This document shows positions 7,028 through 45,131 of a stretch of DNA of 64,000 nucleotides, piece by piece. Every line of letters starts with the position of its first letter. Position 1 is the first letter of the stretch. Position numbers and translations under genes: made by a program. The notes under the pieces were generated by a model. The model did not search any database and was not told where the DNA came from. It saw nothing but the letters and a program-made list of their open reading frames with translations. The stretch is from NCBI RefSeq assembly GCF_015624505.1, contig NZ_CP061379.1:6324001-6388000 (forward strand). Direction: 5' to 3'. This DNA comes from Bradyrhizobium commune. GTDB lineage: Bacteria; Pseudomonadota; Alphaproteobacteria; Rhizobiales; Xanthobacteraceae.

Positions 7028-8287
7028 ATGGCTGTTTCGAGTGTAACGATCCGCGCAGTGCAGGCGCTCAAGCCGGGCGAGACTATTTGGGACGCAGACC
7101 ACCGCGAAGCGGTGCGGGGCTTTGGCGTTCGGCGTCAACGCGAGCAGGCGACCTACGTCCTTAAGTACCGGGTCTTCGGTCGGCAGCGCTTCGTCACCAT
7201 CGGGCCTCATGGCGCCCCCTGGACACCCGAGCTAGCACGCAGGGAGGCCAAACGGCTTTTGGGCCTGGTTGCCGATGGCAAAGACCCGGCGGACGAGAAA
7301 GCCAAGGCGCGCTTGCAGGCGGCCGACACCCTCCGGGTGATCGCGGATCAGTATCTCCGGAACGCCAACCAAAGGCTGAAGCCACGGACCTATTCTGAAA
7401 TAGAACGCTACTTGTTGGTCAGCTGGAAACCGCTGCATCCGGTCTCGGTTTTCCAGATCACCCGTCGCCATATCTCGTCTCGTATCGCCGACATCGCTTC
7501 CGCTCATGGAACGGTCTCAGCAGCCCGCGCCCGTACAGCGCTGTCTTCAATGTTCAACTGGGCAATACGCGAGGGCCTCGACATTGCCGCGAACCCGGTT
7601 CTCGGCACTAATCGACCCGTGCAGCCGGGAAGCCGCGAACGGGTCCTGACGGAGACGGAGCTATTGGCAATCTGGCGGGCCAGCGGCGATGACGATTACG
7701 GACGCATTGTGCGTTTGTTGCTGCTCACAGCCCAACGCCGTGATGAAGTAGGCAGTATGCAATGGGCCGAGCTTGATACCAGTTCGGGGCTCTGGACGCT
7801 GCCGGGCGCCCGGACCAAGAACCATCGCGAGCACATGCTACCGTTGGTTCCCGCCGCCTTGGCGCTACTCCCGCCCCGCCGAAACGGCCGAGACTTTCTC
7901 TTTGGTGACGGACCCCGACGCAGCGGTGACCCTCATCGTGGGTTCTCCGGCTGGTCAAAGTCGAAAACGGCGCTTGATGCGCGCATCGCGGACGCCCTGG
8001 GCGAAGCCCTGCCCCATTGGACAGTTCACGATCTTCGGAGATCGGCGTCCACGGTGATGGCCGACCGGCTTGGCGTGTTGCCACACATCGTGGAGGCGAT
8101 CCTAAACCACGTCAGCGGTCACCGGGCTGGCGTTGCCGGTGTATATAACCGCGCCCGGTACGCGGTCGAAATGCGCGAGGCGCTTGAACGCTGGGCAGAG
8201 CACGTCACGGGCCTGTCAGCCCAAAAGCCCGAGGCCATTCGTCTTCGCATCGGGGCCAACCGTACCGGACTTGCCGATGGAAGCTAG
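7028..8287 (+). CDS. Tyrosine integrase of P4 type, island 1
   Basis: The 419-residue integrase has an N-terminal arm-binding domain (residues about 5-90, with WDADHREAVRGFGVRR and YRVFGRQRFVTIG), a core-binding domain (about 105-200) and a catalytic domain. Catalytic residues visible are Arg near 237 (TAQRRDE), the HxxR box at 334-337 (HDLRR) and the tyrosine near 373 (VYNRARY). It appears intact. It lies directly inside the left attachment site and probably mobilises the 43-kb island. Its N-terminal domain is almost identical to that of the integrase at 50377. Confidence 0.93.
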   Translation: MAVSSVTIRAVQALKPGETIWDADHREAVRGFGVRRQREQATYVLKYRVFGRQRFVTIGPHGAPWTPELARREAKRLLGLVADGKDPADEKAKARLQAADTLRVIADQYLRNANQRLKPRTYSEIERYLLVSWKPLHPVSVFQITRRHISSRIADIASAHGTVSAARARTALSSMFNWAIREGLDIAANPVLGTNRPVQPGSRERVLTETELLAIWRASGDDDYGRIVRLLLLTAQRRDEVGSMQWAELDTSSGLWTLPGARTKNHREHMLPLVPAALALLPPRRNGRDFLFGDGPRRSGDPHRGFSGWSKSKTALDARIADALGEALPHWTVHDLRRSASTVMADRLGVLPHIVEAILNHVSGHRAGVAGVYNRARYAVEMREALERWAEHVTGLSAQKPEAIRLRIGANRTGLADGS

Positions 8288-8714
8288 AATCGCGACTACC
8301 CGGCGAGAGCTTGATTCAGCGGGACAGGGTGACTTGGCGTTAGTGTGCCGGCCTCTCATCCTGGCGTCCCGCATGAGTAGCCTGACTGCGCTGTATGGCA
8401 CTCCCGTCGGTTCGCAACCTGAGCGCCCGAATGCTCAGCCGAGCGCCGAAAACAGCAACGCCACGCAGAAGGCCTTGTGGAATCAGGCATTGATCGGTGG
8501 TGGCGATGGGAAGCCTGTCATTTTGGACAGGTCAGAAATGCTCTTTCTTCAGAAAGGGACTAGAGCTAACCTGCCCAAGATAGCCCCACGCTGATTTGGC
8601 TGTCGAACAAGCGACGCAATCAGGCTAGACTAGATACCTTCGTCTGCAGTTCTATGTGTGGCCTTCGTCGAACGGGAATCGGTCGGGAAGGTTCGGGCAC
8701 GGCGGCTTGAAATA
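8288..8714. other. Intergenic stretch with one hairpin
   Basis: No convincing gene. A perfect 6-bp hairpin CCTGTC-ATTTTG-GACAGG lies at 8514-8531, without a T run. The rest probably holds the promoter of the DUF2946/SPFH gene group. Confidence 0.45.
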
Positions 8715-9098
8715 ATGAATTGGCTCCGATCGAGACTTCGATCTTGTACGCAATTGGCGCTGTTTGCGCTGGCGGTGCAGATGGTCCTTTCGTTTGGCCA
8801 TATCCATCGCGACGATTTGGGGCTGCCGCCACCACCCGCATCCGATGCAACGCAACTTATATCGGGTATAGCGCACGCGCTGGGGGATCCGGCCGATCAG
8901 GACCATCATCCCGCCTCGAATGATTGTTGTCCGATCTGCGCCAGCGTGGCGCTCGTCGCGACGGCGCTTCCGTCACTACCCCCGGTGCTTGTCGAGCCGA
9001 TACCAATCCGCCGTGCTCGTCTGCTGGAAACACCGGTCCAGCCGCCATCGACACAAGTCTGGCGTTCATTTCAAGCCCGTGCTCCACCTATCGCTTAG
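8715..9098 (+). CDS. DUF2946-type small protein
   Basis: The 127-residue protein begins MNWLRSRLRSCTQLALFALAVQ, a membrane anchor or signal peptide, followed by SFGHIHRDD and the signature-like DCCPICASVAL preceded by DQDHHPAS. His residues near CPIC are typical of DUF2946, which is found beside copper, cobalt and zinc transport genes; metal binding is an inference. A longer frame starts 57 nt upstream, but this ATG puts the hydrophobic segment at the N-terminus. It precedes the SPFH operon by 183 bases on the same strand. Confidence 0.65.
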   Translation: MNWLRSRLRSCTQLALFALAVQMVLSFGHIHRDDLGLPPPPASDATQLISGIAHALGDPADQDHHPASNDCCPICASVALVATALPSLPPVLVEPIPIRRARLLETPVQPPSTQVWRSFQARAPPIA

Positions 9099-9281
9099 CT
9101 CATTGCCAGCTCGGCTCCTCGCCGGCATCGAGTACGCCCCGGTTCACCCGGGGTTCGCTCGATCAATCGCCGAGGATGATTGACGCTTCGTGCGCAATCC
9201 CGACTTCGGGCACCAGCCGGCCCGACGATTGAACAGCACTCACCCGCCATTCTTCGCCAACAAAGAGCTTGATGCAATCCC

Positions 9282-11441
9282 ATGAAATCCTCTGCCAAAG
9301 CGCACCGCGCGCAGCGATCGGCGGGCAACTTCGGAAAGGCGCCCGGGATGCTGGCCGAGCTGCCACATTTCAACAATGCCGGGCGGTATGTTGGCGCGCT
9401 CCTGATCATCGGTGCGATCTTTGCCTCAATCGGGTTGGGCTTGATTGGGATGGTCTACGCGCCACCGGTCTACGCGCCGCCACATCTCTATCGATCTTTC
9501 TATCTCATCATTCCGTCGGCATTCGCCTATGTGGGAGCGGCGCTTTTGATCGCAGCTGCGGGATTTCTCTCAGCCGGTATCGTCGCCTCCATCCGCGCCC
9601 ACTTGCTGGCGTCCGACCGCCAAGGGGTCGCGCAAGCGGAAAATTCCGTCTTCGCCGTACCGGACTGGGCCAGAAGCGAGCGGTTGAGGCGTCGTCTTGC
9701 CATTGTGCGCGCATTATTGATGCCAAGCGCAGCCTCCCTGGCGAACTGGCCGGCGACGCTTGTCGTCCTGCTGTTCGGCGGCCTGGCGGCCGGCGGTGTC
9801 ATCGTCGGCTGGCTTGCGCCGCCAATGCGCATTGCCGACCCGCTGCCTCGACAAGTGTTGAGTGGCGTGCTGCTCGTCGCGGCGTTCCCGCTCTTGGTAT
9901 TGGAGCGCTCCTACGCGGCGATCCCGGCCGAGATGCTACCGGAGGCGCGACAGCTCAATCGGTTGTTAAGGGTCCCGCTCACCACATGCCTTGGAATTGG
10001 CATATCGATGGTCCTGCTCTCGCTCGGATTCACATGGGCGATCTGGATCTACGCTGGACTGGGTCTGTTGATTGTCGTCGTCGCACTCGAATTGACACTG
10101 CGCAGCATGGCGATGCTTTTCATCCCGTTCGCGCCCATCGACCGATTGCGAACGGTGGCAGACAGCAGTGTGGCCGGACTGCTCCGCTTTTCCATACCCA
10201 ACTTCCACGCCTTCAACACCGCCGTGCGTCAGCAGTTCGGCATCGATCTGTCGCGCAGCTGGGCGCTCGCCTTCATCCAAAGGGCGATGCTGCCAGTGGC
10301 GGCCGGGATGGCCCTCATGGCCTGGGGGCTTACCGGAGTTACGGCGCTCAGCCTCACTCAGCGCGCGGTTTACGAACGGTTGGGTGTCCCGGTCGCCGTG
10401 TTTGGGCCCGGACTGCATTTTCATCTCCCATGGCCGATGGGCGTGATGCGTGAGGTTGAGCTTGGCATCATCCACGACATTCCGATCGCGATATCGCCTG
10501 GCGACGCTTCGATCGATCTCCAGCAGCCCAGTGCCGGCGTCGGTCAACAGCAGAATTTGGTGGGCGCCGAGGCCCCGGCGCCGCCCAGCGCCGACCGTCT
10601 GTGGAATGCATCGCATCCGTCCGAACAGAGCTACCTGATCGCGAGCGAAGCAAGCGGCCAGCAGAGCTTCCAGATCGCCGATGCGGATTTGCGAATAGTC
10701 TACCGGATTGGCCCCTCAGACGCCGCTGCGATCGACTCTGCCTATCGAGCCGCGGAGCCGACAACTTTCATCCGCGCCGTAGCCGGCCAGCTCCTGGTGC
10801 AATATTTCGCGCGATACACACTCCTCGACGTGCTCGGGCAAAGCCGCGAAACTTTTGCCAATGAATTTCGCACCGCATTGCAGGAGCAATTGGACCGAAT
10901 GTCGAGCGGTATCGAGGCCATCGCGGTGGTGGTCGAGGCGATCCACCCGCCTCCGGGGGCCGCCAACGCATATCACAACGTGCAGGCCGCCGAAATTCTC
11001 GCCACTTCGCAGGTTTCGAAAGAAAAGGCAAAAGCGATCCAAGCCCTCAAATCGGCCGAGACGAACGCGACGGCAGTTCACAATAGTGCGGTCGCGGCGG
11101 CCGTCCAGCTTGTTGACGGGGCCAATAGCGAGAGCGTGCTGTTCGATGCCGATCGCAAGGCAGAGCAGCGCAACAGCGAGGCGTTTCTTCTCGAGCGGTG
11201 GCTCGAACGCCTGGTCGTTGCCCTTACCGGCTCGGACATCATCGTCGTCGATCACCGCCTCAGCGGCCAGAACGCGCCAACTCTCGATCTGCGCAGCTTT
11301 GATGCCGGAAGCCGCGGCGTCCTCCCGCCGTCGGCGGAAAATGACGTCGCGCCGCCGTCCGACAAAAACAACGAGCCGGAAGTCGAGGACAACGAATTCA
11401 CGACACCGAAGTCCACACCCAGACCAGGACCAAAGCCATGA
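9282..11441 (+). CDS. Large polytopic SPFH/HflK-like membrane protein
   Basis: The 719-residue protein has about seven membrane segments in its first half (roughly 36-58, 72-104, 152-177, 190-210, 230-272 as two, 335-360). An SPFH/band-7 domain follows, starting SLTQRAVYERLGVPVAVFGPG and GLHFHLPWPMGVMREVELG, then an Ala/Glu/Lys coiled-coil region (about 570-640) and a Pro/acidic tail. HflK is normally about 400 residues with one membrane helix, so the polytopic N-terminus is unusual. It is the first of four genes overlapping by ATGA and ending in a metal ATPase, which suggests a scaffold for that pump; the role is inferred. Confidence 0.75.
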   Translation: MKSSAKAHRAQRSAGNFGKAPGMLAELPHFNNAGRYVGALLIIGAIFASIGLGLIGMVYAPPVYAPPHLYRSFYLIIPSAFAYVGAALLIAAAGFLSAGIVASIRAHLLASDRQGVAQAENSVFAVPDWARSERLRRRLAIVRALLMPSAASLANWPATLVVLLFGGLAAGGVIVGWLAPPMRIADPLPRQVLSGVLLVAAFPLLVLERSYAAIPAEMLPEARQLNRLLRVPLTTCLGIGISMVLLSLGFTWAIWIYAGLGLLIVVVALELTLRSMAMLFIPFAPIDRLRTVADSSVAGLLRFSIPNFHAFNTAVRQQFGIDLSRSWALAFIQRAMLPVAAGMALMAWGLTGVTALSLTQRAVYERLGVPVAVFGPGLHFHLPWPMGVMREVELGIIHDIPIAISPGDASIDLQQPSAGVGQQQNLVGAEAPAPPSADRLWNASHPSEQSYLIASEASGQQSFQIADADLRIVYRIGPSDAAAIDSAYRAAEPTTFIRAVAGQLLVQYFARYTLLDVLGQSRETFANEFRTALQEQLDRMSSGIEAIAVVVEAIHPPPGAANAYHNVQAAEILATSQVSKEKAKAIQALKSAETNATAVHNSAVAAAVQLVDGANSESVLFDADRKAEQRNSEAFLLERWLERLVVALTGSDIIVVDHRLSGQNAPTLDLRSFDAGSRGVLPPSAENDVAPPSDKNNEPEVEDNEFTTPKSTPRPGPKP

Positions 11442-12499
11442 TATTCGGGCATCATCACCACGGTCATCACCATGGTCATGGTCATGACCATCATGACCAC
11501 GACGACGATTCGGGCCATGGATCGGGGCATGGGCAGGATCGTCGGCGGCAGGGACTGCTCGCGCGCTACGGACGATTCGCGGTCGCTTTCGTGATCGTCG
11601 CAGCTGCCGTCGCCAGCGCCTGCATCGTTCTGGTCAGTCCGGGCGATGCCGTCGTGGTGACCCGCTTCGGCGATCCTATCCACGTGCTCACCGCGCCCGG
11701 AGTCGCATGGAAGATGCCTGCGCCGTTTGAAAGCACGATCGATGTCGATCTACGGCTGCGGACCACGTCGAGCGGCCTGCAGGACGTCGGAACGCGCGAC
11801 GGCTTGCGTATCCTGGTGCAGGCGTATGTGGCGTGGCAGGTCCCCGCTGAAGCCGACCACATCCGGCAATTCCTGCGCGCCGTTCGCAACCAGCCCGATG
11901 TAGCCGCGCAGCAATTGCGAAGCTTCGTCGGCTCGTCGCTAGAAATCACGACCGCGAGCTTCGATCTTGCCGATCTGATAAATACCAATCCCGCCCAGGT
12001 TCAACTGGCTACACTGGAGAGCCGCCTGCGTGAGCGTCTCGATGAGCAGGCGCTCAAGGTCTACGGCGTGACCGTTCGGCAAGTCGGCATCGAACGTCTG
12101 ACCCTGCCGGCTGAAACCCTGAATGCCACCATCGCGCGCATGCGAGCCGAGCGCGAAACCGTCGCGGCCGAACGGCAAGCCGAGGGCAGGCGCGCGGCCG
12201 CGGAGATCGCATCGAACGCCGATCGCGATGCACGCGTTCTGCGCGCCAAGGCCAAGCAGGATGCATCCGAAGTCGAAGCCAAATCACGTCTCGAAGCTGC
12301 CGACATCTATGGTCAGGCCTACAGCAGCGCACCGGAACTCTACAACTTGCTTCGATCCCTCGACACCCTGGACACGGTGGTGGGCGACAATACACGGCTC
12401 ATTCTGCGCACCGATGCCGCGCCGTTCCGCGTTCTGGTCGACGGGCCACCGAATGCGGCCACGCCCGCGCCGCAACCCGCGCAAGGAAGCCGCCAATGA
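11438..12499 (+). CDS. SPFH/HflC-like protein with His-rich N-terminus
   Basis: The 353-residue protein opens with a His/Asp/Gly-rich stretch (FGHHHHGHHHGHGHDHHD, residues about 3-32), a probable metal-binding tail on the cytoplasmic side, then a single membrane helix (about 45-67). The SPFH domain reads VSPGDAVVVTRFGDPIHV and APGVAWKMPAPFE, with an HflC-like VRQVGIERLTLPAETLNATIARMRAE and a long coiled coil (about 230-295). HflC forms ring assemblies with HflK around FtsH. Here no protease is adjacent; the partner is a P1B ATPase two genes on. The His-rich tail is not part of normal HflC. Confidence 0.8.
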   Translation: MIFGHHHHGHHHGHGHDHHDHDDDSGHGSGHGQDRRRQGLLARYGRFAVAFVIVAAAVASACIVLVSPGDAVVVTRFGDPIHVLTAPGVAWKMPAPFESTIDVDLRLRTTSSGLQDVGTRDGLRILVQAYVAWQVPAEADHIRQFLRAVRNQPDVAAQQLRSFVGSSLEITTASFDLADLINTNPAQVQLATLESRLRERLDEQALKVYGVTVRQVGIERLTLPAETLNATIARMRAERETVAAERQAEGRRAAAEIASNADRDARVLRAKAKQDASEVEAKSRLEAADIYGQAYSSAPELYNLLRSLDTLDTVVGDNTRLILRTDAAPFRVLVDGPPNAATPAPQPAQGSRQ

Positions 12500-13539
12500 C
12501 GGCATCCGATATACGCGATGGTGCCGAACCCGAAGGAGCATGGGCTCAATCCGCCAAGATTGCATTCCGATTCCTGTTCCTAGCCGTCTGCTTTGCGGCG
12601 ATCGTTTGGTCACTGTCGGGTATTCGGCAGGTGCCGCCCGAAAGCCGGGCGATCGTCTACCAATTCGGAAAGGTCGAGCGTCAGCAACGGGCCGGACTGT
12701 TGTTCGCATGGCCGCGGCCGATCGAGCAGGTCGTCATCCTGCCATCGGCCGACCGGCAACTCGAATTCCGGATCGACGGCTTCGAACCGGGCTCAAACCC
12801 AAAACACGTCTTCTACTACAACGCCCGAATGAATGGCGCCTTCCTGTTGACCGGCGATGCCAGCGTGGTGCATCTGGAAGCAACGCTGTTCTATCAGATC
12901 GTGGATCCGGCCGCCTATATCCTGCAGGGCGAGCACCTTGGGCCCGCCCTGCAGCGTTTGTTCGTCGCCAGCGCCGTCTCCGTCTGCGCGGCGCGCGACC
13001 TCGATACGATACTGGTCGCGCGCCCCGAATTGGCTACCGGTTCGAATGCCACCGCGCGCGCTGGCCGCGAGCGGCTACGCGCAGATCTGATGAACGCGAT
13101 CAATCGCCGGCTCGGAGATCTCAACGGCGTGGGCGCCGGTCTCGGCATCACGGTGAGCCGGGTCGATCTCGCGGCATCGATTCCGGACGGCGCCAAGGAT
13201 GCCTTCGACAGGGTGCTGGTCGCCTCGCAGGAAGCCGAGCGTGACATTGCCGAGGCTCGTACAGATGCTGCAGCCACGGCGCTCAGCGCCAATCAAGAGC
13301 ACGATCGGATTCTCACGGATGCCGATGCCAAAGCGGCGGAGAAAACGACCCAGGCAAAGGTGCGCACGGCCGCCATCAACGCCCTTGCGCGGGGATCGCC
13401 TGGTTTCTCCGGCATGACGCTCGCCAAGCGGATCTATATCGACCGCATCGGCGCCATATTGGCGAAAGCCGCACGCGTCGATACGGTCGACCATGGCGGC
13501 GGACTTCATCTGATACTGCCCGGGACGACGCCGCAATGA
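12496..13539 (+). CDS. SPFH/HflK-like protein
   Basis: The 347-residue protein has one membrane helix (about 22-45), then an SPFH domain (IRQVPPESRAIVYQFGKVER, AGLLFAWPRPIEQV) and HflK-like ATLFYQIVDPAAYI. A coiled coil rich in Ala, Glu and Lys covers about 235-295. Its start overlaps the preceding stop by ATGA and its stop overlaps the ATPase start the same way, so the products are probably made in fixed ratio. It is taken as the HflK-like half of a hetero-oligomer with the His-rich protein before it. Confidence 0.8.
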   Translation: MTASDIRDGAEPEGAWAQSAKIAFRFLFLAVCFAAIVWSLSGIRQVPPESRAIVYQFGKVERQQRAGLLFAWPRPIEQVVILPSADRQLEFRIDGFEPGSNPKHVFYYNARMNGAFLLTGDASVVHLEATLFYQIVDPAAYILQGEHLGPALQRLFVASAVSVCAARDLDTILVARPELATGSNATARAGRERLRADLMNAINRRLGDLNGVGAGLGITVSRVDLAASIPDGAKDAFDRVLVASQEAERDIAEARTDAAATALSANQEHDRILTDADAKAAEKTTQAKVRTAAINALARGSPGFSGMTLAKRIYIDRIGAILAKAARVDTVDHGGGLHLILPGTTPQ

Positions 13540-15449
13540 CCGCAGAAACCATGACCGCCAACGACGCAAACACGCGGGGCGAGGGCCTGCTCAGCCGATC
13601 TGAACAGATTTCCCTTGGCGTGCGGCTCGTGCTCTCGCTGATTGCCGGCGGATGCCTGATCCTTTCGGCCGGACTGCTGTTCCTGGCGCCGAGCCAGGCC
13701 GAGGTCGCCGAGCTGGTTGCCGGTATTGCGGCATTGCTGGTCGCCATCCCCGCGCTCTCGGCAGCCTGGGAGAGCCTGCGCCATCCGGATCTGCACGGAA
13801 TAACCGACCAGCTCATTGCGCTGGCGTTGGTCGCGGCCTGGGCGGCGGGAGATCTGATGACGGCGGCATTGCTGCCGCTGGTCATGACTCTCGGACACAT
13901 CTTGGAGGAGCGATCGCTCCTGGGCTCGCAAGAGGCGATCCGGGCCCTGAGCCGGTTAACCCAGGTCAAGACGCGCCGCGTGCTGCCGGGTGGGGAGCTG
14001 GAAGAAGTCCCCACGCAGTCCTTGCACCCCGGCGATCTGATCGATTTGCGCGCCGGCGATCTCGTCCCCGCCGATGGCGTCGTTCAAACCGGCAAGTCAA
14101 GCATGGATACGGCATCCATCACGGGAGAATCAGTTCCCGTCGAAGTGCAGCCCGGCAGCGAGGTGTTCAGTGGTTCGATCAATGTCGACGGCCATCTGCT
14201 GGTGAAACTCACGCGGGTCGGCCAGGATTCGACCCTCGGTCGTGTGATAACTCTGCTGCAGGAAGCCGAGAACGCGAAGCCTCCGATTACCCGGCTACTC
14301 GAACGCTATGCCGGACGTTACATGGTGCTGGTGCTGCTGACCGCCGCGGGCACCTGGTTTCTGACCAGCAACACAGTAGCAATGCTGGCGGTGCTGGTCG
14401 CAGCCTGCCCGTGCGCCCTGGTGCTCGCCGCGCCGGCGACGTCAATCGCCGCGATCGCTGTTGCAAGCCGTCACGGAATCCTGGTCAAGGGCGCGGGGTT
14501 CTTGGAGAATGTCGCGACCGTCGATGCGGTCGTGTTCGACAAGACCGGGACCGTCACGCTGGGGCAATTGCAGGTCGTCGATGCGAGACCGGAGTCCGGC
14601 GTCAGCCGGGACGAGCTCGCTACATTGGCCGGCAGTCTGGCGGGCGCCAGCAATCACCCGGTCAGTCGGGCGCTCGTTCGGTTTGCAACGAACGCAAAGC
14701 TCGAACTCGATGACGTCAAAGAAACGCATGGTCTCGGCGTGGTCGGACGGCTGGGCGTGGACACGGTCGCACTTGGTCGCGCCGAGTTGTTCGATGAACT
14801 CGGCATCGCCATTTCGTCTGAGCCGAACCACGACGGTCCGATCGCAGGTGTCGCGCGCGGCAACAAATTTCTCGGTTGGATGCTGCTGGCGGATGAGCCT
14901 CGCCCGGAGGCGCCAGAGGCCATCGCAGACCTCCGCGAGCTCGGTCTTCGGCGGCAGGTGCTGCTGACGGGAGATCGCATGTCGGTCGCCCGCCGCATTG
15001 CGGATGTTCTGGGCCTGCCGAACGTCCGCGCCGAGGCCCTTCCGGCCGAGAAGATGGCTTGCGTGCTCGACGAGATTGGCGCCGGCTATCGCCCAATGGT
15101 GGTTGGCGACGGCATCAATGATTCGCTCGCACTCAAGGTCGGCGCAGTCGGCGTCGCTATGGGCGCGCGTGGCAGCGACGTTGCATTGGCCTCCGCCGAC
15201 CTGGTGCTGATGACCAATGATCTACGACGGCTCGGGACCTGCATCCGTTTGAGCCGACGCTGTCGCCGTACCATCTATGTCAATGTCGCCGTCGGGCTTG
15301 GCTGGACGGTCGTGATCGTGGCCGCTGCGGCGACAGGCGTCATGGGCGCCAGCGGTGCGATCATTGCGGCGCTGCTTCACAACTTCAGCACTTTGGTGGT
15401 GATGGCCAATGCCGGCCGGCTGTTGAAGTTTCAGGAGCCGGTGGCGTAG
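13536..15449 (+). CDS. P1B-type heavy-metal translocating ATPase
   Basis: The 637-residue pump has the actuator motif TGES (196-199), CPC ion-site motif in the membrane (291-293, ACPCALVLAAP), phosphorylation site DKTGT (335-339), the nucleotide-binding HP dipeptide in ASNHPVSRA and the hinge GDGINDS (from 524). There is no N-terminal HMA metal-binding domain. The last helix reads HNFSTLVVMANAGRLL, which is not the copper (Y-N-x4-P / M-S) nor the classical ZntA pattern I know, so the metal is unassigned among Zn, Cd, Co or Mn. Translational coupling to three SPFH genes is the notable feature. Confidence 0.9.
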   Translation: MTAETMTANDANTRGEGLLSRSEQISLGVRLVLSLIAGGCLILSAGLLFLAPSQAEVAELVAGIAALLVAIPALSAAWESLRHPDLHGITDQLIALALVAAWAAGDLMTAALLPLVMTLGHILEERSLLGSQEAIRALSRLTQVKTRRVLPGGELEEVPTQSLHPGDLIDLRAGDLVPADGVVQTGKSSMDTASITGESVPVEVQPGSEVFSGSINVDGHLLVKLTRVGQDSTLGRVITLLQEAENAKPPITRLLERYAGRYMVLVLLTAAGTWFLTSNTVAMLAVLVAACPCALVLAAPATSIAAIAVASRHGILVKGAGFLENVATVDAVVFDKTGTVTLGQLQVVDARPESGVSRDELATLAGSLAGASNHPVSRALVRFATNAKLELDDVKETHGLGVVGRLGVDTVALGRAELFDELGIAISSEPNHDGPIAGVARGNKFLGWMLLADEPRPEAPEAIADLRELGLRRQVLLTGDRMSVARRIADVLGLPNVRAEALPAEKMACVLDEIGAGYRPMVVGDGINDSLALKVGAVGVAMGARGSDVALASADLVLMTNDLRRLGTCIRLSRRCRRTIYVNVAVGLGWTVVIVAAAATGVMGASGAIIAALLHNFSTLVVMANAGRLLKFQEPVA

Positions 15450-15471
15450 ACGTCGCCTGAATTGTCCCGCA

Positions 15472-16413
15472 CTACTCCAGCCTGGAGAGGAGCTGGTCGA
15501 GACTATTGGCGAAGCTGTTGATGTCGAAATTCAAGGGGTCGTCGTGGCCATTGGGAATGTCGGCGTCGATGGCGGCGTGGAACGCAGGCACGAGCCAGTC
15601 CCCTCTGCGGACGCTGGCGATGGTGTAGAGCAAAGCCAGCCGGTCGTATTGTGCCGTGGTGAAAGCCGGATCGGGCGTACGCGCATCATTGCGCACGCCA
15701 TGTCCCGCGGATGTACGTCGCGGCTGCACCATCTCGGTATGCAGGAACAGCCCCTGCAGGGTGCCGCCAAACGCGGCCGCTTGCTCGAACTTAGTCTCGC
15801 GCCATGGGATCGAATAATCGTGCGCCAGCAGCATTTCGCCGGTGCGATTGATGAAGACATGGGCGCGCCCCCAGCCATCCGAGCAAGCATAATAGGCGAG
15901 ATTTTCGTATATTCGACCGGTATCGATGTTGTCGGGAAATGCGCGGCGGCCGTAGTTCGGCCCGCTGGTATCGTGGATCACGAAGTAGCGCGCCATGGGT
16001 GCATTGGGATCGTTATTGCGGGCCCGCGATAACGGCTCCCACAGATGGGCGCCAAAATCCGCCTCCAGGTCTTGCCTAGAGAGATACGCGGCCAGCACTT
16101 CGCGCGAAGGCAAGTCCGCGATCTTGCCGATCCGTCGCGCGAGTCCGGGCGGTAGACTTTCGACGGGCGGGCCGAGATTCCTGCTCGCATCCATGCCGCG
16201 CATGAGACACCTGGCTTGCTGCAGCGGCGTGCCGGCATAGCTCAAAGTCTGCGGGTCGAAATCGCAGACGCCCATACTCTTGATAAGATAAGGTGCGCGG
16301 AAGTGGTGCGGCCTGCATTCCGTGGCAAACACCGCCTTCGCAAAACTGAGCGACAGTGCGGCGCAAATTCCCGCCTTGACGAGGCTGCAATTTGGTTTGA
16401 CGCGGTCGCGCAA
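15472..16413 (-). CDS. Putative N-acetylmuramoyl-L-alanine amidase-like exported protein
   Basis: The 313-residue protein has an N-terminal signal-like region (about 10-31, ending VFATECRP) and no membrane segment afterwards. The pieces ARYFVIHDTSG (His147), RAHVFINRTGEMLLAHDY, GLFLHTEM and PNGHDDPLNFD resemble the Amidase_2 fold, in which two His and one other residue hold a catalytic zinc. I do not recognise a close family, so the enzyme class is tentative. The start is a TTG. It follows the polysaccharide deacetylase by 57 bases and may be the last gene of the Zur-box operon starting at 22642. Confidence 0.55.
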   Translation of the reverse strand: MRDRVKPNCSLVKAGICAALSLSFAKAVFATECRPHHFRAPYLIKSMGVCDFDPQTLSYAGTPLQQARCLMRGMDASRNLGPPVESLPPGLARRIGKIADLPSREVLAAYLSRQDLEADFGAHLWEPLSRARNNDPNAPMARYFVIHDTSGPNYGRRAFPDNIDTGRIYENLAYYACSDGWGRAHVFINRTGEMLLAHDYSIPWRETKFEQAAAFGGTLQGLFLHTEMVQPRRTSAGHGVRNDARTPDPAFTTAQYDRLALLYTIASVRRGDWLVPAFHAAIDADIPNGHDDPLNFDINSFANSLDQLLSRLE

Positions 16414-16470
16414 GCGCTAATTCTCAAACATAAATTCAGATCCCCAGTCGGCGCCGCGCTGCGAGTTTCT

Positions 16471-17475
16471 TCAGAAGCCCTTTGCGCCTCCCAAGCGGCT
16501 TGAGCTTCCTTCGATACGTCGTAAAGCCGCGGCCTTTTTCGCCGGTGCCGTAGTTGACGGCGGCGCGTCGGCGACCGCCGGGTTCTCCTCGGCTCCCACA
16601 GCTCGAGCAGGAGGCAGGCGCCATTGTTCGGGAGTTGTTGCGGTTTTTGCGATCGTCGCATTGGCCGAGACGACCTGCACCACCCTGTATCCCCTTGTCT
16701 TCAACTCGCTCAAAAGGTCGGGAAGTGCCTCGACAGTGCGTTCATGAATATCGTGAAGAAGGAGAATGCCCCGACTTTTCGCCTCCAGTCTCGAAATCGC
16801 CCGTTTAACGATTTCAGCGCTGCTTATTCTCAACCAGTCGTCGGCCGGAACGTCCGCGCTCCACGTCATGAGGCCGCGGGAGGCGATCGCGGCCTCCGTG
16901 CGCTCAGAGGTCAACAAGCCCGGCACCCGGAAAAAGGGAGCGAGCTCCTCCGGGTTTCCGAGCGCAGTCCCGACTGCGACGATTCCTCCGTCGATCTCCT
17001 GGCCTGCCTGGCTTTCCGTCATTCTTCCGAAAGTGAACGGGTGACTCAAGCTATGCGTCCCAACTGTATGGCCGTCAGCCTCAACCTTTCTTGCTTCGTC
17101 CGGAAAGGTCGCTGCCATCCGGCCGACCATGAAGAACGTCGCTTTGACGCATTCAGAAGCCAGTATCTCAAGGACACGGTCCGTGTATCGCGGCGACGGC
17201 CCGTCATCAAAGGTGATGACGACTTCGTGGTCGGCGAGAGGCAGTGTTTCCGGATATTGCATGGTGCCGATCCGCGGATGGTCCTTCGGGTCGACAGCGA
17301 TGACGCGGCTGGTGCCAAGCGCATCGGACTTGCCGTTGCACTGCATGGCCAAACTCGATGTGTTTACGCCAAAGCTCGCGAGGACCAGACCGACAAGAAA
17401 CCTGCGCCCAACGGGTTGAACGGGATTCTTCTTCGCTGCATGTCGGAACACATGGATGGGAGAGACAAGGCTCAT
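16471..17475 (-). CDS. Polysaccharide deacetylase (NodB homology domain)
   Basis: The 334-residue exported enzyme contains all five motifs of the family: TFDDGPSP (88-95), HSLSHPF (141-147), FFRVPG, SADVPADDW and LLHDIH. The Asp91 and the two His of motif 2 are the usual metal ligands. An N-terminal hydrophobic segment (about 26-44) serves as signal. A Pro/Ala/Lys-rich tail of about 60 residues follows the domain. The substrate may be peptidoglycan GlcNAc or an exopolysaccharide. It is 13 bases after znuB in the same operon, which ties a cell-wall enzyme to zinc uptake. The ATG at 17475 was chosen over one 48 nt upstream inside znuB. Confidence 0.88.
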   Translation of the reverse strand: MSLVSPIHVFRHAAKKNPVQPVGRRFLVGLVLASFGVNTSSLAMQCNGKSDALGTSRVIAVDPKDHPRIGTMQYPETLPLADHEVVITFDDGPSPRYTDRVLEILASECVKATFFMVGRMAATFPDEARKVEADGHTVGTHSLSHPFTFGRMTESQAGQEIDGGIVAVGTALGNPEELAPFFRVPGLLTSERTEAAIASRGLMTWSADVPADDWLRISSAEIVKRAISRLEAKSRGILLLHDIHERTVEALPDLLSELKTRGYRVVQVVSANATIAKTATTPEQWRLPPARAVGAEENPAVADAPPSTTAPAKKAAALRRIEGSSSRLGGAKGF

Positions 17476-17488
17476 GATCGCGCTCCCC

Positions 17489-18316
17489 TCATACCGGCTC
17501 TCTCGGAACCTGGACCAGAGCATTGGGAGAGCGGTGGGGCGCCCAGCCGCGGCTGACGAAATAGGCGAGCGCGCTTAGCAATGCGATGCAGAAGCTGACC
17601 GGCCAATCGGTATAATAGGCGATGGCGATCCCGACCCAGGCCTCGGCCAAAGCGAGCCCGACTGAGAGTGCGATTCCGCTCCAAAGCCCGCCGACCAGCC
17701 GCTGTGCGGTCGCCGGCGGACCCACCATAAGACTGAATACCAGGAGAATGCCGACGATCTGGACACTCTCCGACACCGCCAGTGCGACGACTGCCAGGAA
17801 GGCGGTGGAAACAAAGCGCAGCGGCACACCCTTGGCTTCGGCGAGCTCCGGCTGCAGGCTGGCAAAAATGAGCGGCCGCATGATCGCGGCAAGAGCGGCC
17901 ACCGTGACCAGGCCCAGCCCGGCGAGGACCGCGATCGTCGGACGGTCGACTGCGAGCACATTGCCAAACAGCAGCGAAGTGGCTTGGGCTGCGAATGACG
18001 TGTAGTAGTGCAGGAACAAAAGTCCAAAGCCGAGCGACAGCGCCAACACTACGCCAATGGCTACGTCGCGGTCGCTAACGCGCTCGCCCATCATTCCCAT
18101 ACCGATACCGGCGGCGACAGTGAGGCCGACAAGGCCCCAGACCGATGGCACGCCGATCAGGACTGCGCCGGTGGCGCCCGCGAACCCGATATGCCCGAGT
18201 GCGTGCCCGGCAAAGGTCTGTCCACGCAGCACGAGGAAATAGCCCACCAAGCCCGATACCAAAGCTGCAACTCCGGCGGCGGCGAAAGCGTTTCTCATGA
18301 AATCGTATTCAAGCAT
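17489..18316 (-). CDS. znuB: Zinc/manganese ABC transporter permease, ABC-3 family (set 1)
   Basis: This 275-residue permease has about eight membrane helices and the ABC-3 hallmarks MLEYDFMRNAFAAAG, LRGQTFAGHALGHIGFAG and VSESVQIVGILLVFSLMVGPPATAQ. It forms the membrane channel for the ATPase upstream and the binding protein before that. The start MLEYDFMR was chosen because it matches the family; an ATG 30 nt upstream would overlap znuC further. Confidence 0.88.
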   Translation of the reverse strand: MLEYDFMRNAFAAAGVAALVSGLVGYFLVLRGQTFAGHALGHIGFAGATGAVLIGVPSVWGLVGLTVAAGIGMGMMGERVSDRDVAIGVVLALSLGFGLLFLHYYTSFAAQATSLLFGNVLAVDRPTIAVLAGLGLVTVAALAAIMRPLIFASLQPELAEAKGVPLRFVSTAFLAVVALAVSESVQIVGILLVFSLMVGPPATAQRLVGGLWSGIALSVGLALAEAWVGIAIAYYTDWPVSFCIALLSALAYFVSRGWAPHRSPNALVQVPREPV

Positions 18317-19130
18317 GGCGTTCACGATGGTGAGCAGGATGGTCATGCAGATGGCCGGAGCGCTCGATGTTGCGGCCTCGCGACAGCACGAAGATGTGTC
18401 CGTCGGCGTGGACGACGTCGATATCCGCCCCGTAGAGCTTCGATAACACCGGCGCCGTCACCACCTCCGCCACGGTCCCTAGCGCAGCGTGGCCGTTGCC
18501 GAGATAGAGCACGCGGTCGAGCGCGCCAATCAGCTGATTGAGCTCGTGCGCGCTGAATAAGACCGTAATGTTGCGGTCGTGGGCGAAGCGTCCAACAAGC
18601 TCGATGATCGACTCCTGATGGCGTTGATCAAGGCTGATCAAAGGTTCATCGAGCAGCAGCAGTCTCGGTTCGCCGAGCAGCGCTTGAGCCAGCAGCAGAC
18701 GCTGCCGCTCACCGCCCGACATGTCCGACAGCGCACGATCGGCGAGGTCGCGTGCGCCCACCGCCGTGAGCGTCTCGTCAATCGTCCTGCGGTCGGCGCG
18801 CCCAAGCGTCGGCAGACCCCACCGATCGCCGCGGATCGAGCTCGCGACGAAATCGAAGCCACGCACGCGCAATCCCGGCATTACCGTGCGCACCTGTGGA
18901 ACGTACCCGATATCCGCATCGCCGCGCTGCGGGGTACGGCCGAACACCCGGATAGTTCCTGTGCTTGGCCGCAACAGGCCAAGGATGGCGCGCATCAGCG
19001 TGGTTTTGCCGGCCCCGTTGGGACCGAGGACGCCGATGAATTCGCCAGGTTCGATCGCGAAGTTGGCGTTCTCCAGGACGACCTGGCCGCCAATTTCAAT
19101 TGTTACGCGATCGAACTCGATGACGTTCAT
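18309..19130 (-). CDS. znuC: Zinc/manganese ABC transporter ATP-binding protein (set 1)
   Basis: The 273-residue ATPase shows Walker A GPNGAGKTT (about 37-45), a Q-loop in YVPQVR, signature MSGGERQR, Walker B LLLLDEP and H-loop FSAHELNQ. A His-rich tail (GHLHDHPAHHRERHA) follows the domain, as in several zinc-type ZnuC proteins. Its start overlaps the znuA stop (TGATG) and its end overlaps znuB, so the three are co-translated. Confidence 0.9.
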   Translation of the reverse strand: MNVIEFDRVTIEIGGQVVLENANFAIEPGEFIGVLGPNGAGKTTLMRAILGLLRPSTGTIRVFGRTPQRGDADIGYVPQVRTVMPGLRVRGFDFVASSIRGDRWGLPTLGRADRRTIDETLTAVGARDLADRALSDMSGGERQRLLLAQALLGEPRLLLLDEPLISLDQRHQESIIELVGRFAHDRNITVLFSAHELNQLIGALDRVLYLGNGHAALGTVAEVVTAPVLSKLYGADIDVVHADGHIFVLSRGRNIERSGHLHDHPAHHRERHA

Positions 19131-20038
19131 CAGTGATTTCCGGCCAGCGCCTTCTCGGTCGCTTCAAGCTGTGTCAGCATCCAATCCTGGTACGAAAGCC
19201 CGGTCGGCGCGGTTTCCGTCACCCCCACGACTGGAACATTGGATTGATGCGCAAGCCCGACCAGACGCTGCACCATATTATCCGACACCTGCCTGTTATA
19301 GAACAGGACGCGTGCCTTGTGCGTCTTCAGATCCTGTTCGAACGCGGCGATATCGCTGGCGCTCGGCTCGGTATCATTCATGACCGCGAGCTGAAATTGA
19401 TGGTCGAGCATCGTCAGACCTAGCGAGGCGGCCATGTAGCCGAAAACCGGCTCTGTTGCCGTGACCGGGAGCCCGGCATACTGGTTGCGAATGGAAGCGA
19501 TCTTGTCGTCCAGCGGCTGGAGCGAGGCGAGAAAGGATTTTAGCCGCGCGTCGTAATTGTCCGCGTGGGCGGGATCAGCAGCCTTCAATGCGGCGGCGAC
19601 CGCTTTTGCGACCGCTGGCATTGTAGCCGGGTCGTACCACAGATGCGGATTTTCCCCGGCGTTCTTGTGCAAAAGGTCGGCGACCATGATCAGGACGCGC
19701 CCGGATTTCGGCGTGACCTTGAGCAGCCCTTCCATCCACGAGTCGTAGTTGGCGCCATTCTGGATGACGACCTGCGCGGCGGCGACATCGCGAACGATGG
19801 AAGGGGAGGTCTCGAACAGATGTGGGTCCTGATCCGGGTTCTTCAGAATACTGGTGACCGAAACGGAGTTACCCCCGATCTGCTGCGCGACGTCACCGTA
19901 GAAGTTTTCAGCCGCTACGATTGCGATCTTGCCGTCGGCGGCGTATGTGTTCGTGAGAGCGCCAAGTATGATCAGCGCCGCCACGATGCTGATGTTTGTC
20001 TTCTTCGTGATTGCTCGGCCTGCGCTGAGACACCTCAT
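19130..20038 (-). CDS. znuA: Metal ABC transporter substrate-binding protein, ZnuA/TroA superfamily (set 1)
   Basis: The 302-residue protein has a signal peptide (about 13-34, ending TYAADG) and the cluster A-I fold. Metal ligands visible are His in DPHLFETSP and His in NPHLWYDP. The third ligand region reads TATEPVFGYMAA, with Glu where ZnuA has His; some TroA-like subfamilies share this. There is no His-rich loop. It is encoded with its own ATPase and permease, so the transporter is complete. Zinc is the likely cargo from context, but the Glu leaves manganese or another metal possible. Confidence 0.85.
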   Translation of the reverse strand: MRCLSAGRAITKKTNISIVAALIILGALTNTYAADGKIAIVAAENFYGDVAQQIGGNSVSVTSILKNPDQDPHLFETSPSIVRDVAAAQVVIQNGANYDSWMEGLLKVTPKSGRVLIMVADLLHKNAGENPHLWYDPATMPAVAKAVAAALKAADPAHADNYDARLKSFLASLQPLDDKIASIRNQYAGLPVTATEPVFGYMAASLGLTMLDHQFQLAVMNDTEPSASDIAAFEQDLKTHKARVLFYNRQVSDNMVQRLVGLAHQSNVPVVGVTETAPTGLSYQDWMLTQLEATEKALAGNH

Positions 20039-20406
20039 GGCTCACCCGGTCGTTTAGGTCCAAGCGCCAGCTCGAATGCTGCCTTCAGCTCTTGGGAAGT
20101 AACATCCGGAATCGGCTTGTGCACGCGGGCGATGGTTGGCTTTTCGCCCTCCCTCAAAATCGCGACGACAGTTTCAACATCGGGACATCCCGGCTCTCGA
20201 CAGGAAAGTTCCGACACTGAGATCGTCACATCATCCGGCAAGCCAAGCAGCTTCTGCGCCTGCAGCTTGAGTTGCTGAACTGCCTCAGGATAGCCGGTTC
20301 TTCGGATGCGTCGGCCCAAGGCAAAAGCAGTCTTTGACACGATCAGCCTCTGGGAGTTTGCGTTGCGGGTCAGCACAGCATGGCAGGAAACCTCGTCTCC
20401 TGCCAT
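20035..20406 (-). CDS. Hypothetical protein with CREPGCP motif, zinc operon member
   Basis: About 123 residues, soluble, with QLKLQAQKLLGLPDDVTISV, the two-Cys motif SCREPGCPDVETVVAI and RVHKPIPDVTS. I recall similar small proteins beside COG0523 and zinc transporter genes, without a known function. A longer frame overlaps the GTPase gene; the ATG at 20406 (MAGDEVSCHAV), 16 bases after that gene, is preferred. The stop overlaps the znuA start by ATGA. Confidence 0.6.
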   Translation of the reverse strand: MAGDEVSCHAVLTRNANSQRLIVSKTAFALGRRIRRTGYPEAVQQLKLQAQKLLGLPDDVTISVSELSCREPGCPDVETVVAILREGEKPTIARVHKPIPDVTSQELKAAFELALGPKRPGEP

Positions 20407-20422
20407 GCTGTGAGCACTTGCA

Positions 20423-21403
20423 TCAATGACTTGAACTCTGGCAACGGCTAAAGCCGTCCTTGAGAATGTCCTCCGGCAAGTCGCGCCCGATGAAGACCAG
20501 ACGGCTTGTCCTGGGCTCATCGGGTTTCCAGGGGCGTTGATGGTCTCCTTCGAGCAACATGTGCACCCCCTGAATGACGAAGCGATCGGGATCGTCCTGG
20601 AACTGGATGATCCCCTTCAGCCGCAAAATATCGGTCCCGAACTGACGAACGGTCTCCTGCATCCAGGGGAAAAACTTCTCGGGAATGAGAGGTGTCTGCG
20701 ACGTCAAGGACAGGCTCTTGACGTGGCTGTCGTGCTCATGGCCGTGAGCTTCAGTGAGAAAGCCGGGCTCGAACTCAAGAACCCTGTTGAGATCGAACGC
20801 GTTGCGATCCAGGACTTTCTCGAGGTCGAGCGCGCAGCGCTCCGTGCGATGGATTACGGTATAAGGATTGATTGAACGAATTCTCGACTCGACAAGCTTG
20901 AGATCCTCCTCCGAGACCAGATCGGTCTTGTTGAGCAAGACGACGTCGGCGAATGCGATCTGCTCCTGCGCTTCGTGCGCCTGGTCGATCTCTCCGAGGA
21001 GATGTTTTGCGTCGATGACCGTGACGATCGCGTCGAGCTTCGTGTTGCGGCGAACGTCATCGTCGACAAGGAAGGTTTGTGCCACCGGCGCCGGATCGGC
21101 AAGCCCGGTGGTCTCCACGATGATTCCGTCGAACTTGCCACGCCGCTTCATCAGCCCTTCGAGAATCCTGATGAGATCGCCTCTCACCGTGCAGCAGATG
21201 CACCCATTGTTCATTTCGAATATCTCTTCGTCCGCGTTGACGATCAGATCGTTATCAATTCCGACCTCGCCGAACTCATTCACGATCACTGCATAGCGCT
21301 TGCCGTGGGTTTCGGTCAGGATCCGGTTGAGCAAAGTCGTCTTCCCCGCGCCCAGGTACCCGGTGAGGACGGTGACCGGTGTTTGTGAAATCGCGTCGTT
21401 CAT
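20423..21403 (-). CDS. COG0523 GTPase (CobW/ZigA/YeiR type metallochaperone)
   Basis: The 326-residue protein has Walker [10 protein letters not shown] (15-23), the GCICC metal motif (CxCC, Cys68/70/71), Walker B-like [12 protein letters not shown] for guanine recognition and a C-terminal CobW_C domain (from about 235: [14 protein letters not shown]). A His cluster HGHEHDSH precedes that domain. COG0523 proteins deliver zinc or cobalt to client proteins with GTP hydrolysis. It is 12 bases after another COG0523 gene and just before the ZnuABC set, so a role in zinc allocation is likely. Confidence 0.9.
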
Positions 21404-21415
21404 GCTTGGTCCTTT

Positions 21416-22642
21416 TCAGCTTTTCGGGTTCGGTAGATCGTGGATCACGGCAGAGGGTTCGAACTGGGCGGTGGCGCGCTCGTGGAAAATGAGCAAGAGC
21501 CCCGCGACAAGCGCCACGCCGAGAAGGCTCAAGCCAGCGGCAGTCAGCACCAGCTCCGCTTTCGCGCGCGTTGAAAGGCCTGTTATCGTGGTGAACAGGT
21601 TCTTGACGGTCGCTTCATCGATACCGTGGGTGATGACGACCATTCGCGTGCGACGATCGTCCGACGGCCAGGCCGGCAGTCGATATTGATGGATCGCATG
21701 CTGAACGCCGTGCACGACGAGGGGCCGATCCGGATCGTCCTCGAGTCCAACAAGGCCCTTGAGACGGAGCAGTTGCGGGCCGGCCACGGCATTGAGCAGC
21801 TCAACGAACGTGGCGAGGTTTCGTGCCGATACGGGGCGGCTTTCCAGCAACGCCAGAGTTTGGATGCCCGCCGCCGCATGGCGGCTTGCGCCCGCGACAC
21901 TGTCGTGAGCTTGCCCTTGCTCGGCCAACGCCTGCTCAAGAGCCAACCATCCTTCAACATCGGACCCCTGCTCGGAGGGAACGTAGCCGCGCGGCGCAAA
22001 CACTGTGGCGAGGTCGAAGCCAGCTCCATGGCGATCCACGATGGGCGCCGCCGCATTGATCTGGCGGATTTCCTGCGACAGTTCAGAATTGGGGCGACGT
22101 TCTGCGGGCTCTGCGTCTACATCGGTCTTGGTGAGCACGATGAGGTCCGCGAACGCCACCTGCTTCATGCATTCGAAGTGCCGCTCCATCGACTCTTCGA
22201 TCGTGGTCACGTCGATTGCGCAGACGACGCCGGACAGCCGGAAGCATCTTGCCACGACATGATCCCGAAAACCCGCGGCCGGAAGCCCGCCGGGCGTGAT
22301 CTGATTGATGATCGGAGCGGGGTCGGCAAGACCGGTCGTCTCGACGATCACGCGCTTGAACGGCGGGACAGCCTTGCTCTCCACAGCATCGTAAAGTTCG
22401 AACAGGGAAGTCCTGATGTCGCTCGCGGCCGTGCAGCAGAGGCAGCCCGTGGTCGTCACCATCATTTCGCGCTTGTTGACCCGAACAAGGTCATGGTCGA
22501 TCGATATATCGCCAAACTCGTTGATGATGACGGCGGTGTCCGCAAAGGCCTCGCTTTCCAGGAGCTCGTTGAGCAGCGTGGATTTTCCCGCGCCCAGGAA
22601 GCCCGTGAGGATCGTCACCGGAATCGGTTGGTCTAGCTTCAT
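21416..22642 (-). CDS. COG0523 GTPase with C-terminal membrane anchor
   Basis: The 408-residue protein has Walker A GFLGAGKS (14-21), CLCC (Cys67/69/70), [12 protein letters not shown] and a CobW_C-type domain (about 255-350: SRPVSARNLATFVELL, LLRLKGLVGLEDDP). After VKNLFTTITG a long hydrophobic helix (about 362-386) is followed by a short polar tail, i.e. a predicted C-terminal membrane anchor that ordinary COG0523 proteins lack. The ATG at 22642 is preferred to a GTG two codons upstream. It is first in the operon and lies 29 bases downstream of a Zur-box palindrome. Confidence 0.88.
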   Translation of the reverse strand: MKLDQPIPVTILTGFLGAGKSTLLNELLESEAFADTAVIINEFGDISIDHDLVRVNKREMMVTTTGCLCCTAASDIRTSLFELYDAVESKAVPPFKRVIVETTGLADPAPIINQITPGGLPAAGFRDHVVARCFRLSGVVCAIDVTTIEESMERHFECMKQVAFADLIVLTKTDVDAEPAERRPNSELSQEIRQINAAAPIVDRHGAGFDLATVFAPRGYVPSEQGSDVEGWLALEQALAEQGQAHDSVAGASRHAAAGIQTLALLESRPVSARNLATFVELLNAVAGPQLLRLKGLVGLEDDPDRPLVVHGVQHAIHQYRLPAWPSDDRRTRMVVITHGIDEATVKNLFTTITGLSTRAKAELVLTAAGLSLLGVALVAGLLLIFHERATAQFEPSAVIHDLPNPKS

Positions 22643-44110: not shown

Positions 44111-45130
44111 TCGGCTGTTTCGAATGTAACGATCCGTGCAGTGCAAGCGCTCAAGCCTGGCGAGACCATTTGGGACGCAGATCACCGCGAAGCAGTGCAG
44201 GGTTTTGGCGTTCGGCGTCAGCGTAACCAAGTGAGCTACATTCTTAAGTACCGAGTGTTCGGTCGGCAACGCTTCGTCACCATCGGTCCTCACGGCGCCC
44301 CTTGGACACCCGAACTGGCACGTAAGGAGGCCAAGCGGCTTTTGGGCCTGGTTGCCAATGGCAAAGACCCGGCGGACGAGAAAGCCAAGGCGCGCTTGCA
44401 GGCGGCCGACACACTTTCGGTAATCGCGGATCAGTATCTCCAGAACGCCAAACAGAGGCTGAAGCCCGGGACCTATTCGGAAATTGAACGCTACTTGTTG
44501 GTCGCTTGGAAACCCCTGCATCCGGTCTCGGTTTTCCAGATTGCACGCCGTCATATCTCGGCTCGTATCGCTGACATCGCATCAGCTCATGGAGCGGTCT
44601 TGGCAGCCCGCGCCCGTACAGCCCTGTCCTCAATGTTCAACTGGGCAATACGCGAGGGCCTCGATATTGCCGCGAACCCCGTTCTCGGCACCAATCGGCC
44701 CGCCCAGCCGGGAAGCCGCGAACGGGTCCTCACGGAGAGGGAGCTATCTGCCATCTGGCGGGCCTGTGGCGATGACGATTACGGTCGCATTGTGCGTTTG
44801 TTGCTGCTCACCGCCCAACGCCGTGATGAAGTAGGCAGCATGCAATGGGCCGAACTTGATACTAGTTCGGGGTTCTGGACGCTGCCCGGCGCCCGGACCA
44901 AGAACCATCGCGAGCACGTGCTGCCATTGGTTCCCGCCGCCTTGGCGCTACTCCCGCCCCGCCGAAACGGCCGAGACTTTCTCTTTGGTGACGGACCCCG
45001 ACGCAGCGGTGACCCGCATCGCGGGTTCTCCGGCTGGTCAAAGTCGAAAACGGCGCTTGATGCGCGCATCGCGGACGCCCTGGGCGAAGCCCTGCCCCAT
45101 TGGACGGTTCACGATCTTCGGAGATCGACG
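44111..45130 (+). pseudogene. Tyrosine integrase remnant (third copy), truncated
   Basis: The translation follows integrase 1 closely from SNVTIRAVQALKPGETIWDA to HDLRRST, including the catalytic Arg (TAQRRDE) and HxxR. Where integrase 1 has ATGGCT the copy has TCGGCT, so the start codon is gone. After GGAGATCG (45120-45127) it switches to a zigA-like sequence, losing the third catalytic box and the tyrosine. Confidence 0.88.
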
Positions 45131-45131
45131 T

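Follow-up and report, generated by a model that had tools for sequence, protein, structure and literature searches.

Why should a heavy-metal pump be encoded, without a gap, directly behind three proteins of the SPFH superfamily? We address this question for a stretch of Bradyrhizobium commune DNA (contig NZ_CP061379.1, positions 6,324,001 to 6,388,000; the whole 64,000 nucleotides are hereafter called the window, and positions are counted from its first base). Four + strand open reading frames (ORFs) lie at 9282-15449 and, as the original prediction had it, share a 4-base ATGA overlap at each of the three junctions. The first, as defined from ORF, Pfam and hydropathy, encodes SPFH-A, an HflK-like SPFH protein of 719 residues (9282..11441). 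It is followed by the genes for an HflC-like SPFH protein of 353 residues (11438..12499), with a His-rich N-terminal tail, one transmembrane segment and an SPFH domain; for an HflK-like SPFH protein of 347 residues (12496..13539), which has one transmembrane segment and lacks the His-rich tail; and for an HmtA-type P1B ATPase of 637 residues (13536..15449), which lacks an N-terminal metal-binding domain. An artefact of ORF calling was considered as the source of this operon and rejected. The answer we favour, with a probability of about 0.6, is that the operon encodes an SPFH assembly dedicated to the HmtA-type pump that it surrounds, with uptake more likely than efflux.

The first step was to ask how widely the four genes travel together. 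Loci were collected with SPFH-A alone or with an 11-row alignment of its relatives, the latter because single-sequence searches, with 1 hit in 289 genomes of the class and 2 in 397 of the order, were too weak for distant copies. Counting overlaps once, the SPFH-A gene was present in 106 distinct genomes or plasmid records. Hits were found in 11 of 398 genomes of the phylum and in 3 of 146 of the genus, the latter including Bradyrhizobium diversitatis and Bradyrhizobium sp. WSM3983, the closest named relatives for this locus (SPFH-A 92% identity). Two genera of one family were rich in copies (13/25 and 71/119 genomes), a further family gave 5/119, and tblastn identified the gene in 10 plasmid records. 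The named carriers are Rhizobium, Burkholderia ubonensis, Paraburkholderia sprentiae, Klebsiella aerogenes plasmids and Bradyrhizobium. From a gap like that occupied by PA2436 in Pseudomonas aeruginosa (see below) and from kinship to the Klebsiella copy, we infer that the two copy-rich genera are Pseudomonas-type and the further family Enterobacteriaceae-type.

We examined 58 of the 106 loci, which span alpha-, beta- and gammaproteobacteria (L101 and L102 had been dropped as duplicates of L012 and L013). A lack of conserved gene order in other genomes had been named beforehand as a possible refutation of the original prediction; in all 58 loci the four genes stood in one order on one strand, and the unit is therefore more than chance. 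As the loci were selected by SPFH-A alone, the ATPase played no part in the selection. The 4-base overlaps occurred at the three junctions in 36, 38 and 41 of the 58 loci, and at all three at once in 15. One locus, L042, has an interrupted HflC-like frame in an otherwise complete operon, and for this reason its HflC- and HflK-like rows were used neither in the tree nor in the HflC/HflK residue counts given below. In L119 the start of the ATPase was not located, and the SPFH-A of L099 was flagged with two stops in the search. Taken as a whole, the four genes probably form one functional unit.

The ATPase type was then followed independently. A profile of the ATPase, applied at E ≤ 1e-180 to the same 398 genomes with the best three candidates per genome scored, returned exactly the same 11 carriers (hits of 1019.9-1186.8 bits). 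In the two copy-rich genera, 32 of 60 SPFH-negative genomes were scored, with all candidates included, and all were without the ATPase type; their best profile score was 372.1 bits, from other P1B pumps. Within these samples the ATPase type never occurs apart from the SPFH gene. That no scaffold-free form of this ATPase was found among them suggests that the scaffold is part of the pump's working. The joint presence of ATPase and SPFH-A in 11 of 11 genomes argues against one alternative, namely that the target of the SPFH proteins is FtsH, a zinc protease, on which they would act as the zinc-starvation version of HflKC, and that the ATPase is merely co-regulated with them.

The kinship of the SPFH proteins speaks partly for that alternative. 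When the PDB was searched by profile, the top rank for all three proteins went to HflC or HflK from the FtsH complex, and the authors of two P. aeruginosa studies read the corresponding proteins as FtsH modulators (PMC9431628, where the three HflC/K genes are among the zinc-starvation genes) or, for PA2438/2439, as FtsH partners (PMC11761036). All three belong to the SPFH superfamily: for SPFH-A, the HflC-like and the HflK-like protein, respectively, the Pfam Band_7/SPFH family gave E values of 2.3e-17, 3.3e-28 and 5.3e-17, and Band_7 scores of 64, 99.4 and 62.9 bits against a cut-off of 23.6. However, their scores fall below the cut-offs of the HflC and HflK equivalogs (102.6 of 134.4 for TIGR01932; 83.0 and 43.2 of 159.4 for TIGR01933). 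By these profile scores, the operon proteins have the same fold as HflC and HflK and lie outside those equivalogs. A tree built from 24 of the 58 loci gave one clade per SPFH type (supports 98/97, 99/99 and 100/99) and placed the HflC-like clade as sister to canonical HflC (100/100), with uncertain deeper joins; two rows of this tree, own_stomA and own_stomB, are probably wrong-frame picks and were not used. Canonical hflKC, moreover, is present elsewhere in the genome, as a separate adjacent pair at 2.013 Mb of the single 7.62-Mb contig, with 34-35% identity to E. coli HflK and HflC.

The operon thus resembles FtsH-HflKC in having SPFH domains of the HflK/HflC type. It differs from it in its partner gene, which encodes a P1B ATPase and not FtsH, and in having three SPFH paralogues, a His-rich tail and a multi-helix subunit. 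The HflC-like and HflK-like proteins have one hydrophobic segment each. For SPFH-A, which had been described as a seven-helix protein, hydropathy gave six clear N-terminal hydrophobic segments, and the seventh, at 335-353, was borderline (mean 1.58, threshold 1.6); seven helices are plausible, not proven. A second FtsH-HflKC locus was considered as an identity for the operon and rejected, and we regard modulation of FtsH by these proteins as improbable. The other 712-residue SPFH frame of the genome (L005) was also set aside; it reads as a lone SPFH protein, with no such operon within the 3.7 kb examined.

We next consider how metal could be bound. The tail of the HflC-like protein (codons 11438..11533) was found, as originally described, to be rich in His, with 14 within residues 1-32, followed by RRR..R..R and a single hydrophobic segment. 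Because the arginines precede this segment, the tail is predicted from the positive-inside rule to be cytoplasmic. Residues 1-50 of the HflC-like protein contain at least 7 His in 56 of 58 loci. L020 and L099 depart from this: in these sister loci, residues 1-40 of the ATPase have 5 and 4 His instead, a swap that is one evolutionary event and does not amount to a statistical test. Overall, 28 of 58 operon ATPases have at least 4 His in their first 40 residues. The same region of the HflK-like protein contains a median of 0 and a maximum of 2 His.

Outside the HflC-like tail, conserved His residues among the three SPFH proteins are confined to SPFH-A, in which H379, H398, H445, H555 and H565 are kept in 57, 56, 58, 58 and 58 of 58 homologues. 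None of the five is present in E. coli HflK, and only the first (the H379 position) in E. coli HflC. The topology of HflKC puts these positions, by prediction, in the periplasm. The window ATPase has no His in residues 1-40 and no CxxC in residues 1-60, and since Pfam reports E1-E2_ATPase and Hydrolase and nothing else, it is without a heavy-metal-associated domain, as the original prediction stated. Its further proposal, that the tail covers the missing function, agrees with what the homologues show: judged from sequence, the HflC-like His tail appears to stand in for the missing metal-binding domain of the ATPase.

The ATPase itself is a P1B heavy-metal ATPase, with a TIGR01525 score of 525.7 bits (cut-off 346.25) and a CPx motif, and it has the P1B core in common with the Zn/Cd P1B-2 (ZntA/CadA) and P1B-4 ATPases. 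An ordinary ZntA/CopA pump was rejected; the scores are under the equivalog cut-offs (285.6 of 1240 for NF033775; 250.7 of 1316 for NF007952). One transmembrane helix holds CPC (C291, C293), and the final one holds LHNFST (H615). All 58 operon ATPases keep CPC and LHNxST (with an LHNVGT variant in 2), and LHNxST was absent from the four other P1B pumps checked; two CadA-like pumps of Pseudomonas type pair CPC with ADMGAS. The best solved match, 7qbz (275 bits in the PDB profile search), has SPC and HEGST in the printed alignment, whereas the operon ATPases have CPC and LHNxST. In these alignments the CPC/HNxST signature is unusual.

Is a system of this composition new? The original prediction knew of none, which goes too far: P. 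aeruginosa PA2439-PA2434 holds HmtA (PA2435) together with three HflC/HflK-family genes (PMC4542158). By locus numbers, the order there is SPFH (HflK family), HflC, HflC family and then HmtA, and the window shares the arrangement of an HmtA-type locus, three SPFH genes followed by a P-type ATPase gene on the same strand. The two differ in that PA2436 lies between the SPFH genes and hmtA, where the window copy has no gap, and in that the window copy lacks a Zur box. A comparable gap of 600-638 bp precedes the ATPase gene in 9 of 58 loci. The operon is thus apparently the counterpart of the P. aeruginosa hmtA locus, as judged from gene order and published names and not from PAO1 sequence. At L087:7155-7607, a predicted secreted protein of 150 residues, with no Pfam match at E ≤ 1, is encoded between the HflK-like and ATPase genes and is a possible counterpart of PA2436. 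What is new here is the tightness of the module, the placing of a His tail on the HflC-like protein (56/58) or else on the ATPase (2/58), the extra histidines of SPFH-A and the CPC/HNxST signature. A largely open-access literature search returned no paper in which the SPFH genes take part in transport by HmtA, and a search of Haas 2009, on COG0523, for HflC, HflK or SPFH gave no match.

In which direction would such a unit move metal? Given a unit, we consider uptake somewhat likelier than efflux, because the gammaproteobacterial relatives are expressed in zinc starvation and because HmtA has been reported to import. HmtA is said (Lewinson 2009, through citing papers) to import both Zn and Cu. 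As for expression, deletion of znuA in P. aeruginosa is reported to raise PA2435, 2437, 2438 and 2439 by 5.6, 14.4, 10.6 and 9.0-fold (PMC4542158), HmtA and the PA2437-2439 proteins are listed as increased in zinc depletion (with 0.05 significance in the printed table only for PA2438; PMC11761036), and the HmtA system is described as up under calprotectin (PMC8557868).

The opposite direction has a precedent. The ATPase could export metal, with the SPFH assembly and the His tails as a platform that keeps the pump stable and loaded, as in PacL1-CtpC. In zinc starvation, periplasmic enzymes would then receive zinc from the pump, or the exported metal would be a different one. One paper describes P1B pumps as exporters throughout (PMC10654040), and the signature motifs of this ATPase are those of an ordinary P-type pump. 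The mycobacterial PacL-CtpC system is likewise an operon-encoded membrane scaffold with its own metal-binding motif that serves a P1B ATPase, and PacL1, whose motif is a separate one, is needed for normal CtpC levels (PMC9374683). However, PacL1 is a protein of 93 residues and not an SPFH protein, and the inducer of PacL-CtpC is zinc excess, as against zinc depletion for the P. aeruginosa counterpart. No PacL-type (DUF1490) scaffold gene was found beside the ATPase gene, whose operon neighbours are SPFH genes, a DUF2946 ORF being the only small one tested beside them. Set against the reported import by HmtA and the induction by zinc starvation, export strikes us as doubtful.

The metal is likely to be mainly zinc. 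In the window, znuABC and COG0523 genes adjoin the operon, in a set that has three COG0523 GTPases in all, a TonB receptor, a Fur-family regulator beside two Zur-like boxes and a second ZnuA. Five strong Zur-like boxes (22671, 26676, 31863, 31880 and 35760) sit upstream of COG0523, the TonB receptor, a Fur-family/COG0523 divergent pair and an ArsR-like gene. The Paraburkholderia copy is adjoined by genes for a zinc ABC transporter, COG0523, DUF2946 and a PCu(A)C copper chaperone. The last of these is one reason to ask whether zinc is the main metal at all, or whether the module serves copper or both metals, as are the reported uptake of both metals by HmtA and the lack of a Zur box at the window copy. 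The absence of zinc repression of hmtA has also been ascribed to copper import (PMC8531726). The znuABC and COG0523 neighbours, here and in Paraburkholderia, count the other way. So does the binding of Zur to the PA2439 promoter, which is shifted in vitro only with Zn; the same study puts PA2439 first in the hmtA locus (PMC8531726). A weak Zur site is described at this locus (PMC4542158). Finally, 42 of 48 copies from genomes inferred to be gammaproteobacterial have, upstream, a GTTATAnnnTAAC-like palindrome, sought with a regular expression fixed after the best hits of a preset-consensus scan had been viewed, compared to 0.1 in shuffles. On this balance, a module for copper, alone or with zinc, is possible and not our expectation.

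Several results weigh against a dedicated SPFH assembly for metal uptake, the late fixing of that expression among them. With the preset Zur consensus, no more than 15 of the 58 loci passed shuffle p ≤ 0.02. Upstream of the window operon there was no Zur-like box, the best match (11 of 18 positions) being at chance level; one matrix used was built from the five strong boxes of the window themselves. In PMC8531726, hmtA mRNA is low and shows no Zn repression, and a review of Pseudomonas zinc homeostasis excepts hmtA from the promoters bound by Zur and holds that import by HmtA needs confirmation (PMC10393844). PacL1-CtpC platforms are reported to form without flotillin (PMC9374683, PMC13043812). 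His-rich N-termini are also present in two other P1B pumps (L132 and L133), and the His tail alone therefore tells nothing on direction and is no proof of uptake. A rare miss is possible in both surveys of 398 genomes, because of the three-candidate limit. AlphaFold, run on 3 near-identical sequences, gave a mean predicted local distance difference test (pLDDT) of 40.3 for the HflC-like protein and 32.1 for SPFH-A, values at which the models are unusable and lend no structural support.

A single machine in which the pump has an SPFH assembly to itself is nevertheless the simplest account, because of the strict co-occurrence, the tight overlaps, the parallel clades and the shared metal-binding features. 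In such a machine, the HmtA-type P1B ATPase would be served by its own hetero-oligomeric SPFH assembly of three paralogous subunits, separate from the FtsH-HflKC assembly that is encoded elsewhere in the genome. On the periplasmic side, the HflC-like, HflK-like and SPFH-A subunits would enclose one or more ATPases in a dome like that of HflKC, with SPFH-A anchored through its multi-helix domain. The conserved His residues of SPFH-A, predicted to be periplasmic, may bind Zn(II) or copper and hand it to the outer mouth of the pump, or accept it from there, and the many cytoplasmic HflC-like tails may do the same at the inner mouth, replacing the metal-binding domain that the ATPase lacks. A further and only tentative step would be that an SPFH dome which once served a protease was redeployed for an ion pump: as a closed chamber in the periplasm, with outer His sites and an inner ring of His tails, it would keep a private metal pool on each side and so let this type of P1B ATPase import. 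Among the alternatives, we give most weight to efflux that feeds periplasmic enzymes, then to copper instead of zinc and least to FtsH modulation; our weights for the favoured and rival accounts overlap, because copper would be compatible with the favoured one.

HmtA is a disputed case of a P1B ATPase that is said to import metal. If the scaffold is obligatory, tests of the ATPase alone covered part of the machine, and the question of direction could be asked again with all four genes. For SPFH proteins, which follow unclear rules in the choice of clients, a dedicated assembly would also provide a client whose output can be measured, and it would be a second, independent design of scaffold plus metal pump besides the mycobacterial efflux platforms. 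Should the redeployed dome prove true, a transporter would for the first time have an SPFH cage of its own, and this ATPase type would break the rule of export by P1B pumps.

The surroundings of the operon offer some further observations. A gene for a DUF2946 protein (8658..9098, + strand) ends 183 bases 5' of the SPFH-A gene; as well as near the Paraburkholderia copy, a DUF2946 gene is found upstream in the two other Bradyrhizobium loci, and it possibly belongs to the transcription unit of the operon. Between the operon and znuB, 15472-17523 encodes a protein of 313 residues and a polysaccharide deacetylase, both kept in the two other Bradyrhizobium loci. Beyond this, a zinc acquisition island occupies 17489-38473, with two ZnuA genes, znuBC, three COG0523 genes and genes for the TonB receptor, PepSY, HupE/UreJ and the Fur-family regulator. 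From 8410/8478 to at least 21435, the window is collinear with the Bradyrhizobium loci L012 and L013 at 92.5% nucleotide identity. As SPFH-A occurs in only 3 of 146 genomes of the genus, the block 8410-21435 was probably acquired. Three related genes for tyrosine-recombinase-type integrases lie at 7028-8287, 44141-45247 and 50377-51594, the latter two being 93% and 56% identical to the first, which suggests repeated insertion of islands.

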